Source of the DNA: Phycisphaerae bacterium
Lineage (GTDB): Bacteria; Planctomycetota; Phycisphaerae; Phycisphaerales; SM1A02
NCBI GenBank assembly: GCA_002709295.1
Contig: PAQL01000018.1
Location: 1 to 37,739, forward strand
DNA: 37,739 nt
Reading direction: 5' to 3'
Part shown: positions 75 through 3,215 of the stretch, one piece after another
Layout: every line of letters starts with the position of its first letter
How positions within the stretch are numbered: position 1 is the first letter of the stretch
The notes under the pieces: model-generated
Database searches by the model: none
Told to the model about the DNA's origin: nothing
The model's input: only the letters and a program-made list of their open reading frames with translations
Made by a program: the position numbers and the translations under genes

Positions 75-797
75 TCAGGCGGAACGCCGTCGGCCGCGGG
101 TGATGAATCCGGCGACGCCAAGGAGGGCGATCGCACCGGGGCCGGGCACGTTCACGGTGAAGCTGCCCTGCTGGCCCGGAGTGCCGAGACCCTGGTTCCA
201 GGTGACCTCGAGGGTCGAGAAGCTCAGGTCGGAGTCGCCGATCGAGGCGAAGCGGCCGATGAGGACACCGAGACCGGTGAGGTTGCCGCCGAAATCCGGA
301 ACGCTGCCGACCTGGCCGTTGAGGCTCGGCGGGGAGCCGTTGTACCAGCCGGCGTCAGCACCCGGCGCGGCGGCACCGTTGCCACCGAAGTTCGGGTCGA
401 GACCCGAGCCGGCGCCGGAGCCGGGAGCCTGCTCGGGGGCGAGGGTGTCCTGGGCGAAGCCACCGATGGTGACGAACGAGTCGGCCGCACGCAGGGCGGG
501 GGTGTCGAAGGGGCCGCCCAGGTTGGTGGGCTGCCAGCCGGTGCCGGTGAAGCTCTGGAAGTAGCTGGTGGCGGCGGTGGAGCTGGCGTTGTAGTTGAAG
601 ACGTTCAGGACGGTGTCGTTGCTGTCGTTGGACGACAGGTACAGGTCCTGGACGTTCACGGTGACGTCAGAGCCGTCGAAGTCGGCCGCAGTGACCGAGT
701 AGTTGAAGGTGTAGGCGCCGGTGATGTCGGCGGAGGCTGCGGCGGCGAGGGTCAGAATCGCGGACGCACCGATGGCTGTCTTGGTCTGGTTCATCAT
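75..797 (-). CDS. Exported protein with PEP-CTERM-like sorting tail
   Basis: This 240-residue protein begins with a signal peptide (residues 1-23, hydrophobic ILTLAAAASA, cleavage probably after ASA). The middle is rich in Asn, Ser, Gly and Ala and looks like an extracellular beta-rich protein; I recognise no catalytic motif. The end reads VPGPGAIALLGVAGFITRGR followed by Arg-rich residues: a PGP-type motif, a short hydrophobic helix and a basic tail, the tripartite layout of PEP-CTERM/exosortase substrates as found in planctomycetes. The protein is therefore probably exported and processed at the outer surface. The start is the first of two adjacent ATG codons, with an AGGAAGAAG Shine-Dalgarno-like stretch about 8 nt upstream. 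No exosortase gene lies in this window. The domain assignment of the mature part is unknown. Confidence 0.85.
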   Translation of the reverse strand: MMNQTKTAIGASAILTLAAAASADITGAYTFNYSVTAADFDGSDVTVNVQDLYLSSNDSNDTVLNVFNYNASSTAATSYFQSFTGTGWQPTNLGGPFDTPALRAADSFVTIGGFAQDTLAPEQAPGSGAGSGLDPNFGGNGAAAPGADAGWYNGSPPSLNGQVGSVPDFGGNLTGLGVLIGRFASIGDSDLSFSTLEVTWNQGLGTPGQQGSFTVNVPGPGAIALLGVAGFITRGRRRSA

Positions 798-851: not shown

Positions 852-1862
852 TCATTCGGGCGTGATCGGGTCCTCTGGCAACCTCGGCTGAAGCCGGATG
901 CCGCCGTCCTCTCCGATCACATGATCCCTTCGCGATCGACCCACACTGCTCGACCGATCGCGAACGGTTCCTCTGCCTGAATCCTCGCCCACGCGACGGG
1001 ATTCCACTGCTGCCGGACCAGAGGTCTCGGCATCCCCGGAACGACTCGTGTCACCATCTCTGGCGACTTCCCCGGATGCGCCCCCCACGGGCGCCCCCTG
1101 GATGATCCGCTCGGGTCCGACGCCCCCGGCAAATCCTCGGGCGGAGTGACCTCCGCCCGAGGATCGTGGGGGGAACGCGTCACGCACTGCACCGGAACCG
1201 GAGTTCGGAGCAGGCGGGGACACGAGATTCAGATCGTCTTCGGCGTGCTCGCGACAGTCCTGTCCCGCGGTGCCCGATCCGGCGGCGTTCCCGTTGCCGC
1301 CGGATCGAGCGTCCGTGTTGGGACAGTGACCAATCGGATCTCTCTCCAGATGCCGTTGGTCTCGCGGTCCGACCCAGGCCCGGAGCTCCCGTTCCTGGCT
1401 GATCTGGGTCGGTTTCACGTCTGAAGGCGCGGAGCGGAGTTCCCGTTCACACTCGTTGCCTACAAGACGCAAGGCGGTCTGGGACGAGAGTTCCCGCTCT
1501 CGTCTGAGGGCCGCCAGAATCTGGCCTGGTCGGGCGCGATGTCGGATCTCCCGTTCCGACAGTGAGGTTTCCACGAGGGCCTCTGGATTCGTCGCCGTGT
1601 CATGGAGCGGCCTGTTCCCGCAGGCCTTTTTTGATGCTCCAGGTTCGTCATCGCCGCGGTTCCCATCGCAGTCGATTCGACCGAGACGCGTTCCTTGCGC
1701 CCCGACCTTGCCAAGAAGAAAAGAGCAGGTTCTCTTGATCGTCTCGTGATCGCCGAAGATCCCCGTGATCTCACCCGTGGAGGCATCGAACTCGACTTCG
1801 ACGACGAATCGTCCGCCGATGTCTCGGTTGCTCCCTGAGAGGTTGAGGTTCGGAGTGCTCAT
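852..1862 (-). CDS. Doubtful open reading frame, hypothetical protein
   Basis: The frame is open for 336 codons from an ATG at 1862; it also stays open upstream to an ATG at 1967. The first 70 or so residues (MSTPNLNLSG..., then FVVEVEFDASTGEITGIFGD) look protein-like with reasonable codon use. After that the translation becomes low-complexity and Arg/Gly/Ser-rich. The part from about 1632 downwards coincides with an array of perfect DNA hairpins. A repeated ERE(L/I) tetrapeptide in the translation is a by-product of the repeated hairpin loop CGGGA, which occurs in two different codon phases and so is a nucleotide-level repeat. I see no ribosome-binding site. Possibly only the first 70-80 codons are real, or the whole frame is chance. 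No family recognised. Confidence 0.25.
   Translation of the reverse strand: MSTPNLNLSGSNRDIGGRFVVEVEFDASTGEITGIFGDHETIKRTCSFLLGKVGAQGTRLGRIDCDGNRGDDEPGASKKACGNRPLHDTATNPEALVETSLSEREIRHRARPGQILAALRRERELSSQTALRLVGNECERELRSAPSDVKPTQISQERELRAWVGPRDQRHLERDPIGHCPNTDARSGGNGNAAGSGTAGQDCREHAEDDLNLVSPPAPNSGSGAVRDAFPPRSSGGGHSARGFAGGVGPERIIQGAPVGGASGEVARDGDTSRSGDAETSGPAAVESRRVGEDSGRGTVRDRSSSVGRSRRDHVIGEDGGIRLQPRLPEDPITPE
1133..1164 (-). terminator. 14-bp perfect hairpin, possible minus-strand terminator
   Basis: ATCCTCGGGCGGAG (1133-1146) and its exact complement (1151-1164) enclose a TGAC loop. Read on the minus strand the stem is followed by a short T run (ATTTG), similar to the TCTTT tail of the strong terminator beside tRNA-Cys. 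It is the longest perfect stem in the window and closes the loop-repeat array. Confidence 0.4.
1275..1307. repeat. 12-bp inverted repeat with GTTCCCGTT loop
   Basis: CGATCCGGCGGC at 1275-1286 pairs perfectly with 1296-1307 around the 9-nt loop GTTCCCGTT. On the minus strand the helix can extend to 14-15 bp through one G·U pair (positions 1274/1308) and further pairs at 1273/1309 and 1272/1310. It is the strongest member of the shared-loop hairpin family. Confidence 0.8.
1483..1504. repeat. 8-bp inverted repeat with TTCCCG loop
   Basis: GACGAGAG (1483-1490) and CTCTCGTC (1497-1504) enclose the hexaloop TTCCCG, which is identical to the loop of the terminator-like hairpin at 1609-1626 although the stems are unrelated. 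This is direct evidence that the loop, not the stem, is conserved. Confidence 0.75.
1609..1632 (+). terminator. Rho-independent terminator-like hairpin with T6 tract
   Basis: GGCCTG (1609-1614) and CAGGCC (1621-1626) enclose TTCCCG and are followed at once by TTTTTT (1627-1632), the canonical shape of an intrinsic terminator for plus-strand transcription. No plus-strand coding gene ends upstream of it, so it would end a non-coding transcript. On the minus strand the same hairpin carries a CGGGAA loop and belongs to the shared-loop family. Confidence 0.5.
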
Positions 1863-2309: not shown

Positions 2310-3215
2310 ATGAACACGAACCGCTCGATCCATCGACTTCACCTCGTGTCCGCGGGGTTCCTGTGTCTCTCGTTCATGGGTTGTCACACCGCGAGCGACC
2401 GGGCTTCGTCGGACGCCGGGACCGGCATCGAGGCGCCGACGGTGCCTGTCGATCACGCGCCGCTGCGCTATCGGTGTCTGAAGACATCCACGCCTCCGTC
2501 GTTCGACGGCGATCTGGAGACCGGTGTCTGGGCCTCCGCGGCCTGGACGAGGCCGTTTCGCGACATCGAGGGGGATCATCGGCCCCGTCCGCATTTCCGG
2601 ACCACCGCGAAGATGCTCTGGGACGACGAATTCCTGTACGTGGCGTGCACCATGGAGGAGCCGGATGTCTGGGCGACCTACGACAAGCGGGACATGATCG
2701 TCTTTCATGAGAACGATTTCGAGGTCTTCATCGATCCGGACGGGGACGGAAACGAGTACTACGAGATCGAGATCAACGTCCTCGGGACGATCTTCGACCT
2801 GTTTCTCCACCGTCCCTACCGCCTCGACGGCCCCGCCGAACACGGATGGGACACCGAGGGGCTTCGCTGGGCCATTCATGTCGACGGGTCGATCAACGAC
2901 CCGAGCGACCGGGATCGCGGCTGGGTGGTGGAGATGGCGATTCCTTTCGAGGATCTCAGGCCGCCCACCCGCCGGGAGGACGGTTCGGCCTGGACGCTGG
3001 CCCCGATCACCGAGCATCTCCGGGATCCCCGCCCCCGGTCCGGAGAGACCTGGCGAATCAACTTCTCACGGGTCCAGTGGGATCTCGAGGTGATCGACGG
3101 GGCCTATCGGAAGATCGAGGGGCGTCCGGAATACAACTGGACGTGGACGCCCCAGTGGGAGATCAACATGCACGTCCCGTCCCGCTGGGGATTCCTGGAT
3201 TTCGTCAAGGAGTAG
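2310..3215 (+). CDS. Lipoprotein with CBM9-like (carbohydrate family 9/DOMON-like) domain
   Basis: The 301-residue protein starts with a lipoprotein signal: a hydrophobic stretch ending in LSFMGC, with Cys25 as the probable lipidation site. From about residue 60 to the end it has the pattern of CBM9-like proteins: SFDGDLETGVWASAAW near the start, DDEFLYVACTMEEPDVWAT, then NDFEVFIDPDGDG (likely Ca-binding acidic loop), and a tryptophan-rich end (WTWTPQWEINMHVP). These beta-sandwich domains bind glycans or form part of surface carbohydrate-processing machinery; no catalytic domain is attached here. It should sit in an outer or inner membrane facing the periplasm. It converges with the HIT gene, 3 nt away. 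The ATG is supported by the signal peptide and by a -10-like box 6 nt upstream. The ligand is unknown. Confidence 0.85.
   Translation: MNTNRSIHRLHLVSAGFLCLSFMGCHTASDRASSDAGTGIEAPTVPVDHAPLRYRCLKTSTPPSFDGDLETGVWASAAWTRPFRDIEGDHRPRPHFRTTAKMLWDDEFLYVACTMEEPDVWATYDKRDMIVFHENDFEVFIDPDGDGNEYYEIEINVLGTIFDLFLHRPYRLDGPAEHGWDTEGLRWAIHVDGSINDPSDRDRGWVVEMAIPFEDLRPPTRREDGSAWTLAPITEHLRDPRPRSGETWRINFSRVQWDLEVIDGAYRKIEGRPEYNWTWTPQWEINMHVPSRWGFLDFVKE

Follow-up and report, generated by a model that had tools for sequence, protein, structure and literature searches.

CsrB/CsrC and RsmX/Y/Z consist of numerous hairpins whose stems vary while the loop stays the same, end in a terminator, and act by titration at multiple sites; their loops carry ANGGA or CAGGA for CsrA/RsmE. 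Staphylococcus sRNAs of the RsaA/RsaE type have UCCC loops, and sRNA sponges, or target mimics, titrate an sRNA by carrying a copy of its target site. For genes encoding PEP-CTERM proteins, the defining paper describes a sigma-54-type DNA motif upstream of the genes, in Proteobacteria only, together with PrsK/PrsR (Haft 2006, PMC1569441). The same paper notes that upstream regions of a different kind precede many PEP-CTERM genes, in Proteobacteria as well as elsewhere, and that further motifs await discovery, leaving control outside the sigma-54 class open (PMC1569441).

The window analyzed here (the whole stretch of 37,739 nucleotides, from a Phycisphaerae genome designated G000; G001 and G002 are two sister genomes of the same genus) contains ~1.5 kb between a minus-strand PEP-CTERM protein gene (75..797) and a plus-strand gene (2310..3215) for a CBM9-domain protein with a lipoprotein-like start. 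A preliminary description placed six hairpins between these genes, with unrelated stems and a shared TCCCG (plus strand) or CGGGA (minus strand) loop. All six TCCCG sites (1289, 1387, 1441, 1492, 1549, and 1616) exist and lie in or near apical loops; five of the hairpins are solid and one (1432-1453) is doubtful. Read on the plus strand, the outermost hairpin 1 (1275..1307) has a 13-bp perfect stem and the loop TTCCCGT, and may lie upstream of the transcript start. Hairpin 2 (1378..1399, within a longer stem at 1369-1412) has the loop CTCCCG, a G-U closing pair, and 7 of 8 positions paired, with one C-T mismatch. The doubtful hairpin 3 (1432..1453, loop TTCCCG) is weak, and a competing fold puts another loop at its apex. 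Hairpin 4 (1482..1505) combines an 8-10 bp stem with the hexaloop TTCCCG, hairpin 5 (1540..1561) a 7-bp stem with a loop containing CTCCCG, and hairpin 6 (1609..1632) a 7-bp stem with the hexaloop TTCCCG. Four of the six have perfect stems when G-U is allowed (13, 10, 7, and 7 bp). The stems are mostly unrelated, as had been stated, except for CGGAN(C/T)TCCCGTTC, which surrounds the loop in three copies (repeat family D1). A further hairpin, proposed to fill the widest gap, was found by fold and sequence on the plus strand at 1328..1361 (GACCAA...TTGGTC), without the shared loop. Six T residues directly follow hairpin 6 on its 3' side, making it a candidate intrinsic terminator and, as far as the sequence can tell, the likely 3' end of a plus-strand RNA; the terminator scan of the window is not significant by itself (2 found vs. 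1.9 expected), and a promoter scan of the window for the sigma-70 type found none.

The six-hairpin array exceeds chance. Among 2,000 dinucleotide shuffles of positions 1200-1660, four hairpins with a shared loop 5-mer occurred in none and three in one, and 75 comparison loci (239,678 bases) never had more than two hairpins sharing a loop 5-mer. Pairs of TTCCC-loop hairpins (score of at least 5.5, within 400 nt, on one strand) were absent from 320 kb of other DNA of the same genome. When five of the window hairpins were aligned, with hairpin 1 out of register, pairing was 72.5% vs. 60.1% in shuffles and covariation 0.413 vs. 0.165, which was reached in 0/500 shuffles. No Rfam family matched the window at the gathering score, and a weak match to the serC leader (828-843, E 0.69) lies outside the array. 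These results support the earlier suggestion of an undescribed regulatory RNA in which the stems vary and the loop does not.

To assign a strand to the array, we compared pair types and folding energies. The hairpins contain 11 G-U vs. 2 C-A pairs on the plus strand (9 vs. 0 without the doubtful hairpin 3), and the minimum free energy (MFE) over 1131-1640 is -278.3 on plus and -252.5 on minus; by z-score, the strands hardly differ (-5.64 and -6.03). Pairing and folding favor the plus strand, which we prefer because G-U pairs outnumber C-A pairs, the MFE is lower, and T6 follows hairpin 6. The preliminary description had given precedence to the minus strand, as a CsrA sponge of the CsrB/RsmZ type ending at a hairpin at 1133..1164. 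This 14-bp perfect hairpin with a TGAC loop is real, and there is a T-run on neither side of it, so that none follows it on the minus strand. The suggested check for csrA did find two genes (G000:C2:105129 and G000:C42:50172, two matches above the PF02599 cut-off), and GGGA occurs in 6/6 window loops on the minus strand and in none on the plus strand, which would suit such a sponge. However, ANGGA occurs in 0/6 of these loops, all of which read CGGGA. The CsrB/RsmZ models of Rfam gave no match in the window at gathering and none at E ≤5 over 800-2310 or at the loci L123, L155, L161, and L156, and the PEP-CTERM leaders considered below are most enriched in TTCCC, to which we know of no binding by CsrA. 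The absence of ANGGA loops, the preference for plus, and the missing T-run all disfavor a minus-strand CsrA sponge, and we consider it very unlikely.

A feature absent from the preliminary description is a coding stretch on the minus strand (1485..1862), antisense to hairpins 4-6; G001 and G002 each have a homologous ORF in this position. The open frame spans 1967 to 852, with the ATG of the predicted orphan protein, P0004, at 1862. In its N-terminal part and a later motif, IRxRARPxxILAALRRxRE, P0004 matches the G001 ORF (46% over residues 2-67 and 68% over residues 100-130), and the G002 ORF is a more distant match (29%); Pfam gave no match to P0004 at E up to 0.1. The coding signal is clear in the G001 ORF (third-position GC ~0.78-0.86) and weaker for P0004 in the hairpin region (~0.62-0.72 in a frame-true sliding table). 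In both the window and G001, this ORF lies upstream of the PEP-CTERM gene in the same direction. The array is therefore antisense to, and partly within, a coding stretch, and since hairpins 4-6 overlap conserved coding sequence, the protein accounts for part of the sequence. We rejected an origin of the array by inversion of a leader segment because the coding motif at 1485-1560 has the same relative orientation as in G001.

Could the protein account for all of it? Repeated Glu-Arg-Glu-(Leu/Ile) codons would yield CGGGA with partly palindromic flanks as a by-product of coding, and ERE(L/I) codons on the minus strand do coincide with 4/6 loops. The other two sites (1289 and 1616) fall in another codon phase, the code requires no perfect 13- and 8-bp stems, such an array arose in 0/2,000 shuffles, and in G001 a similar protein motif occurs without the stems; we judge this explanation highly improbable. 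A second possibility is that the array functions on the minus strand inside the P0004 mRNA, its CGGGAA hairpins having the polarity of the conserved RNA described below (C27) and forming an mRNA-borne copy of it. The homologues of the minus-strand ORF in G001 and G002, the identity of the minus-strand loops with the C27 loops, and the similar strand z-scores would all agree with this. The balance of G-U and C-A pairs, the MFE, and the position of T6 on the plus strand argue against it, as does the presence of the gene in G001 without hairpins, and we regard an mRNA-borne array as improbable.

Conservation of the hairpins in close relatives had been proposed as a check. The syntenic region of G001 keeps the protein motif but has none of the hairpins, and that of G002 has one UUCCCG-loop hairpin only, which pairs better on the opposite strand. 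The proposed covariance-model search likewise listed no further cluster in 41 genomes, with at most 150 candidates scored per genome. A triple-GTTCCC pattern matched in 27/101 genomes; by eye, only C27 and C29 of the same genome and C367 of G001 were family-like among the matches inspected. Paired GTTCCCG exceeded a reversed control in G000 (17 vs. 10), G001 (13 vs. 10), and G002 (6 vs. 2), with many of 61 genomes below the control, and we set aside a genome-wide excess as weak, since it is little above the reversed control. Three other places were rejected by eye: the suspected array at G000:C7:91163 is a coding stretch with Asp/Asn-rich repeats resembling calcium-binding ones, and G000:C2:155542 and G000:C29:121304 were judged to be coding. 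Separately, seven places in G016 (e.g., C37:6179 and C139:4850) contain dispersed similar elements GTTCCCGGAACTGTCCC...GGGACAGTTCCCG that resemble mobile palindromic elements, TGTGGATAACTC or its complement occurring within six of them, and G057:C7:288091-288265 consists of 42-nt tandem units starting GTTCCCGA.

By searching with a covariance model of the window hairpins and inspecting the weaker matches in the same genome, we arrived at a second array, C27, which appears to be a structured RNA of ~450 nt. It lies at G000:C27:15500-19000 (L123:1490-1960), at L155:2080-2560 in G001, and at L161:650-1080 in G002, and is identified by synteny, loops, and covariation. In the three genomes found for the genus it is located between the same kinds of genes, which in G000 are a gene that we take to be SpoIID-like and a convergent gene. 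On the UUCCC strand, it comprises three or four hairpins built on the core GGYGTTCCC[GA]CACC (GATGCTCCCGCATC in the third hairpin of G002), one TTCCCA hairpin, a hairpin with the loop CCCTTTTCCC, and a block GCTCCCTG...GAAGGAGAAAC. A further, conserved block adjoins a hairpin that resembles a terminator and is flanked by A- and T-runs. On the GGGAA strand, the loops are mostly [CU]GGGAA and GGGAAAAGGG. When 11 C27 hairpins from the three genomes were aligned on this strand, 94.9% of cells were paired and covariation was 0.689 vs. 0.281 (shuffles, 0/500), and slid alignments reached at most 62.2% paired. The UUCCC strand gave 76.8% paired and zero G-U pairs, and a scripted pair count over the hairpins of the three arrays gave 26 C-A vs. 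7 G-U. All three genomes have the lower MFE on the GGGAA strand, and the z-score in G002 favors the UUCCC strand (-7.04 vs. -5.23). Judged by base pairing (94.9% vs. 76.8%, with no G-U on the other strand), the strand of the C27 RNA is the GGGAA one. The 11 aligned loops all carry [CT]GGGA; other segments of C27 contain AGGGA, which fits ANGGA and is a point in favor of the CsrA sponge considered above.

Rfam returned weak matches only, below gathering, for C27 in the three genomes (L123, L155, and L161). The exact C27 pattern was found among GTDB genomes in two Phycisphaerae MAG contigs, of which PKCT01000218.1 is the G002 sequence (100% over 3,589 bases) and JAUIHC010000076.1 probably corresponds to G001. 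Beyond the genus, flanks of up to 1,500 bases beside the neighboring gene contained no array in seven further genomes from the family (L162-L168). The YUCCCG loops of the window are complementary to the CGGGAA loops of C27. An exact 10-mer of window hairpin 6, TGTTCCCGCA, matches the complement of C27 in all three genomes, and an exact 12-mer of hairpin 1, GCGGCGTTCCCG, matches it in G000, neither being significant by BLAST E-value alone. Because the strand balance is reversed between the two arrays, the window RNA and the C27 RNA appear, from their sequences, to expose complementary loops.

Pattern searches also showed that GTTCCCG is clustered in two PEP-CTERM leaders, those at G000:C29 and G000:C10. 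The sense strand of the C29 leader is known, and its hairpins show 5 C-A vs. 1 G-U, four of the five C-A in one poorly paired site. We then examined the 110 nt before the start codon of PEP-CTERM genes that had been collected by their tail, ignoring the leader except in two genes known from the motif search. From 99 places in the genomes, 69 were hand-picked, mostly for better E-values, and 60 were fetched, giving 61 leaders with the window gene (the eight places picked but left out are G000:C29:193719; G001:C66, C541, two in C405, and C202:8077; and G002:C19 and C57). Start codons were assigned from a score for the signal peptide and Shine-Dalgarno sequence, not from annotation. Fifty-two leaders remained after removal of one without a start candidate, one that was too short, and seven with unconvincing starts, one of which (L285) does begin plausibly and lacks TTCCC. 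Codon-position GC was used to predict the control genes, for which L209, L210, L211, and L213 served as sources only.

TTCCC occurred 67 times in the 52 leaders vs. 7.4 expected from composition, the top z-score of all 1,024 5-mers, and never more than 16 times in 2,000 composition shuffles. At least one copy was present in 31/52 leaders and at least two in 21/52. With nothing dropped, these counts were 32/59 and 21/59, and without the motif-known L244 and L246 they were 29/50 and 19/50, with at least two copies in 6/20 leaders of G000. A first control set had TTCCC in 5/32 genes. Compared with a second set of 204 genes from 320 kb plus the window, at least two copies were found in 8/22 G000 leaders vs. 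1/204 controls (p = 2e-8) or 1/50 controls with a signal-peptide-like start (p = 2e-4), and at least one in 11/22 vs. 34/204 (p = 8e-4). When 300 nt were considered, 65/85 TTCCC sites started 20-100 nt upstream of the start codon and none closer than 20 nt. In seven other genera the excess was smaller (10/30 genes, 13 vs. 3.1 expected, for 30 loci returned of 90 matches). The leader of the window PEP-CTERM gene itself has no TTCCC and one GGGAA, and those of its syntenic counterparts in G001 and G002 (L272 and L293) have two TTCCC each. We rejected masking of the Shine-Dalgarno sequence within the leader by UUCCC, since the complement of UUCCC is GGGAA and not AGGAG.

Stems around the TTCCC sites scored higher than flank shuffles (mean 2.63 vs. 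1.99, sd 0.15), and there were 8 strong stems vs. 0.7 in shuffles (maximum 4 in 1,000). A stem score of 4.5 was reached at 12/67 sites, a strong stem being missing at most. These stems bear on our main rival explanation, in which an RNA-binding protein recognizes UUCCC hairpins in leaders, the window RNA is a CsrB-like decoy for that protein, and the C27 RNA is an antisense antagonist or unrelated. The variable stems and constant loop of the array would be expected of such a decoy, and some of the leader UUCCC sites do lie in hairpins. Many of them have no evident hairpin, however, and a binding protein leaves unexplained why there should be a conserved RNA with complementary loops whose strand is fixed by G-U pairs; we consider this explanation unlikely.

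GGGAA was also enriched in the leaders, with 23 copies vs. 7.2 in shuffles (maximum 17 of 1,000). TTCCC only was found in 27 of the 52 leaders, GGGAA only in 11, both in 4, and neither in 10, a mutual exclusion with p = 0.004. Stems at the GGGAA sites were no better than in shuffles (1.63 vs. 1.90), and 8/23 sites started no more than 25 nt from the start codon. GGGAAA(A)GG, which is the second C27 loop read in sense, occurred eight times in leaders from the three genomes, at 179x its density in 320 kb of G000, and its complement, CCTTT(T)CCC, occurred five times in four leaders, at 112x the genome density, both genome densities coming from few occurrences. Going by these motifs, some leaders have the polarity of the C27 RNA and others the complementary one. 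A leader from another genus, L309 of G004, has by eye three TTTGAGGGAA repeats within the 110 nt before its PEP-CTERM start, at least one of them in the loop of a ATCAGGTT/AACCTGAT stem, in the opposite polarity. The preliminary description had offered as its alternative a plus-strand RNA ending at T6, with UUCCCG loops for GGGAA-containing targets; this appears to fit best, because a conserved GGGAA-loop RNA and GGGAA leaders both exist.

The occurrence of UUCCC leaders together with a conserved GGGAA-loop RNA gives the geometry of antisense control via loop-loop pairing. Our tentative model, to which we assign a probability of about 0.4, is that the plus strand of the window yields an RNA that takes part, through kissing pairing, in a network controlling PEP-CTERM genes, and titrates the C27 RNA as a mimic of the leaders. 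Sequence comparison directly supports the existence of the array, the enrichment in the leaders, and a C27 RNA with covarying stems and an assigned strand; from these we infer transcription of the array, its strand, the pairing, and the direction of regulation. The window transcript would be a structured RNA of perhaps ~250-360 nt, with the last hairpin as its own intrinsic terminator and the others exposing YUCCCG loops for kissing pairing. The loops of the C27 RNA, mostly [CU]GGGAA and GGGAAAAGGG, would pair with PEP-CTERM leaders that carry UUCCC, and the C27 RNA would be titrated by the window RNA, a mimic of those leaders at multiple sites. Direct antisense pairing of the window RNA with the GGGAA class of leaders may occur as well. 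Counted against this model are the absence of the array in G001 and its reduction to one hairpin in G002, the overlap of hairpins 4-6 with conserved coding sequence, the small genome-wide excess of paired GTTCCCG, the lack of a detected promoter, the near-equal strand z-scores, the excess of C-A over G-U in the C29 leader, the many leader sites without a strong stem, and the TTCCC-free leader of the window PEP-CTERM gene. In addition, GGGAA leaders share the polarity of the C27 loops, and one simple sRNA-target scheme therefore misses some leaders. An extension that would cover both classes, and that we think rather unlikely, is that the two multi-hairpin RNAs with complementary loops (UUCCCG in the window; CGGGAA and GGGAAAAGGG in C27) each pair with one class and titrate each other, their ratio setting which part of the surface proteome is made.

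The leader motif offers a concrete, testable planctomycete regulon together with a conserved RNA whose loops are complementary to it. In the open-licence literature, titles and abstract openings on PEP-CTERM and sRNA mention nothing on such control, and the papers listed there on planctomycetes and small RNA show no such regulon. If the leader-mimic model is true, base pairing is organized here as arrays of kissing loops instead of one seed region.

The window RNA would share with CsrB/CsrC and RsmX/Y/Z the variable stems, the constant loop, and the terminator at the end, and titration is its likely mode of action. It differs from them in its plus-strand loop, YUCCCG, and in that the matching partner we found is a complementary RNA. 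C-rich or CU-rich sites for antisense pairing are also a feature of RsaA/RsaE and of Listeria LhrC, and UCCC lies in apical loops or single-stranded sites at 6/6 plus-strand sites of the array, one of them in a weak stem; Rfam, through which the comparison was made, gave no RsaE or LhrC match in the window. In those systems the C-rich motif is located in the sRNA, whereas here UUCCC is also found in the target leaders, and the conserved C27 RNA carries GGGAA in several hairpins per RNA. As in the proteobacterial PEP-CTERM genes, a shared control element lies upstream of the coding sequence; theirs is a DNA motif, whereas the element here is in the leader near the start codon and looks to act at the RNA level. 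Unlike a described sRNA sponge, finally, the window RNA would mimic the leader motif of one protein class with an array of mostly unrelated stems.
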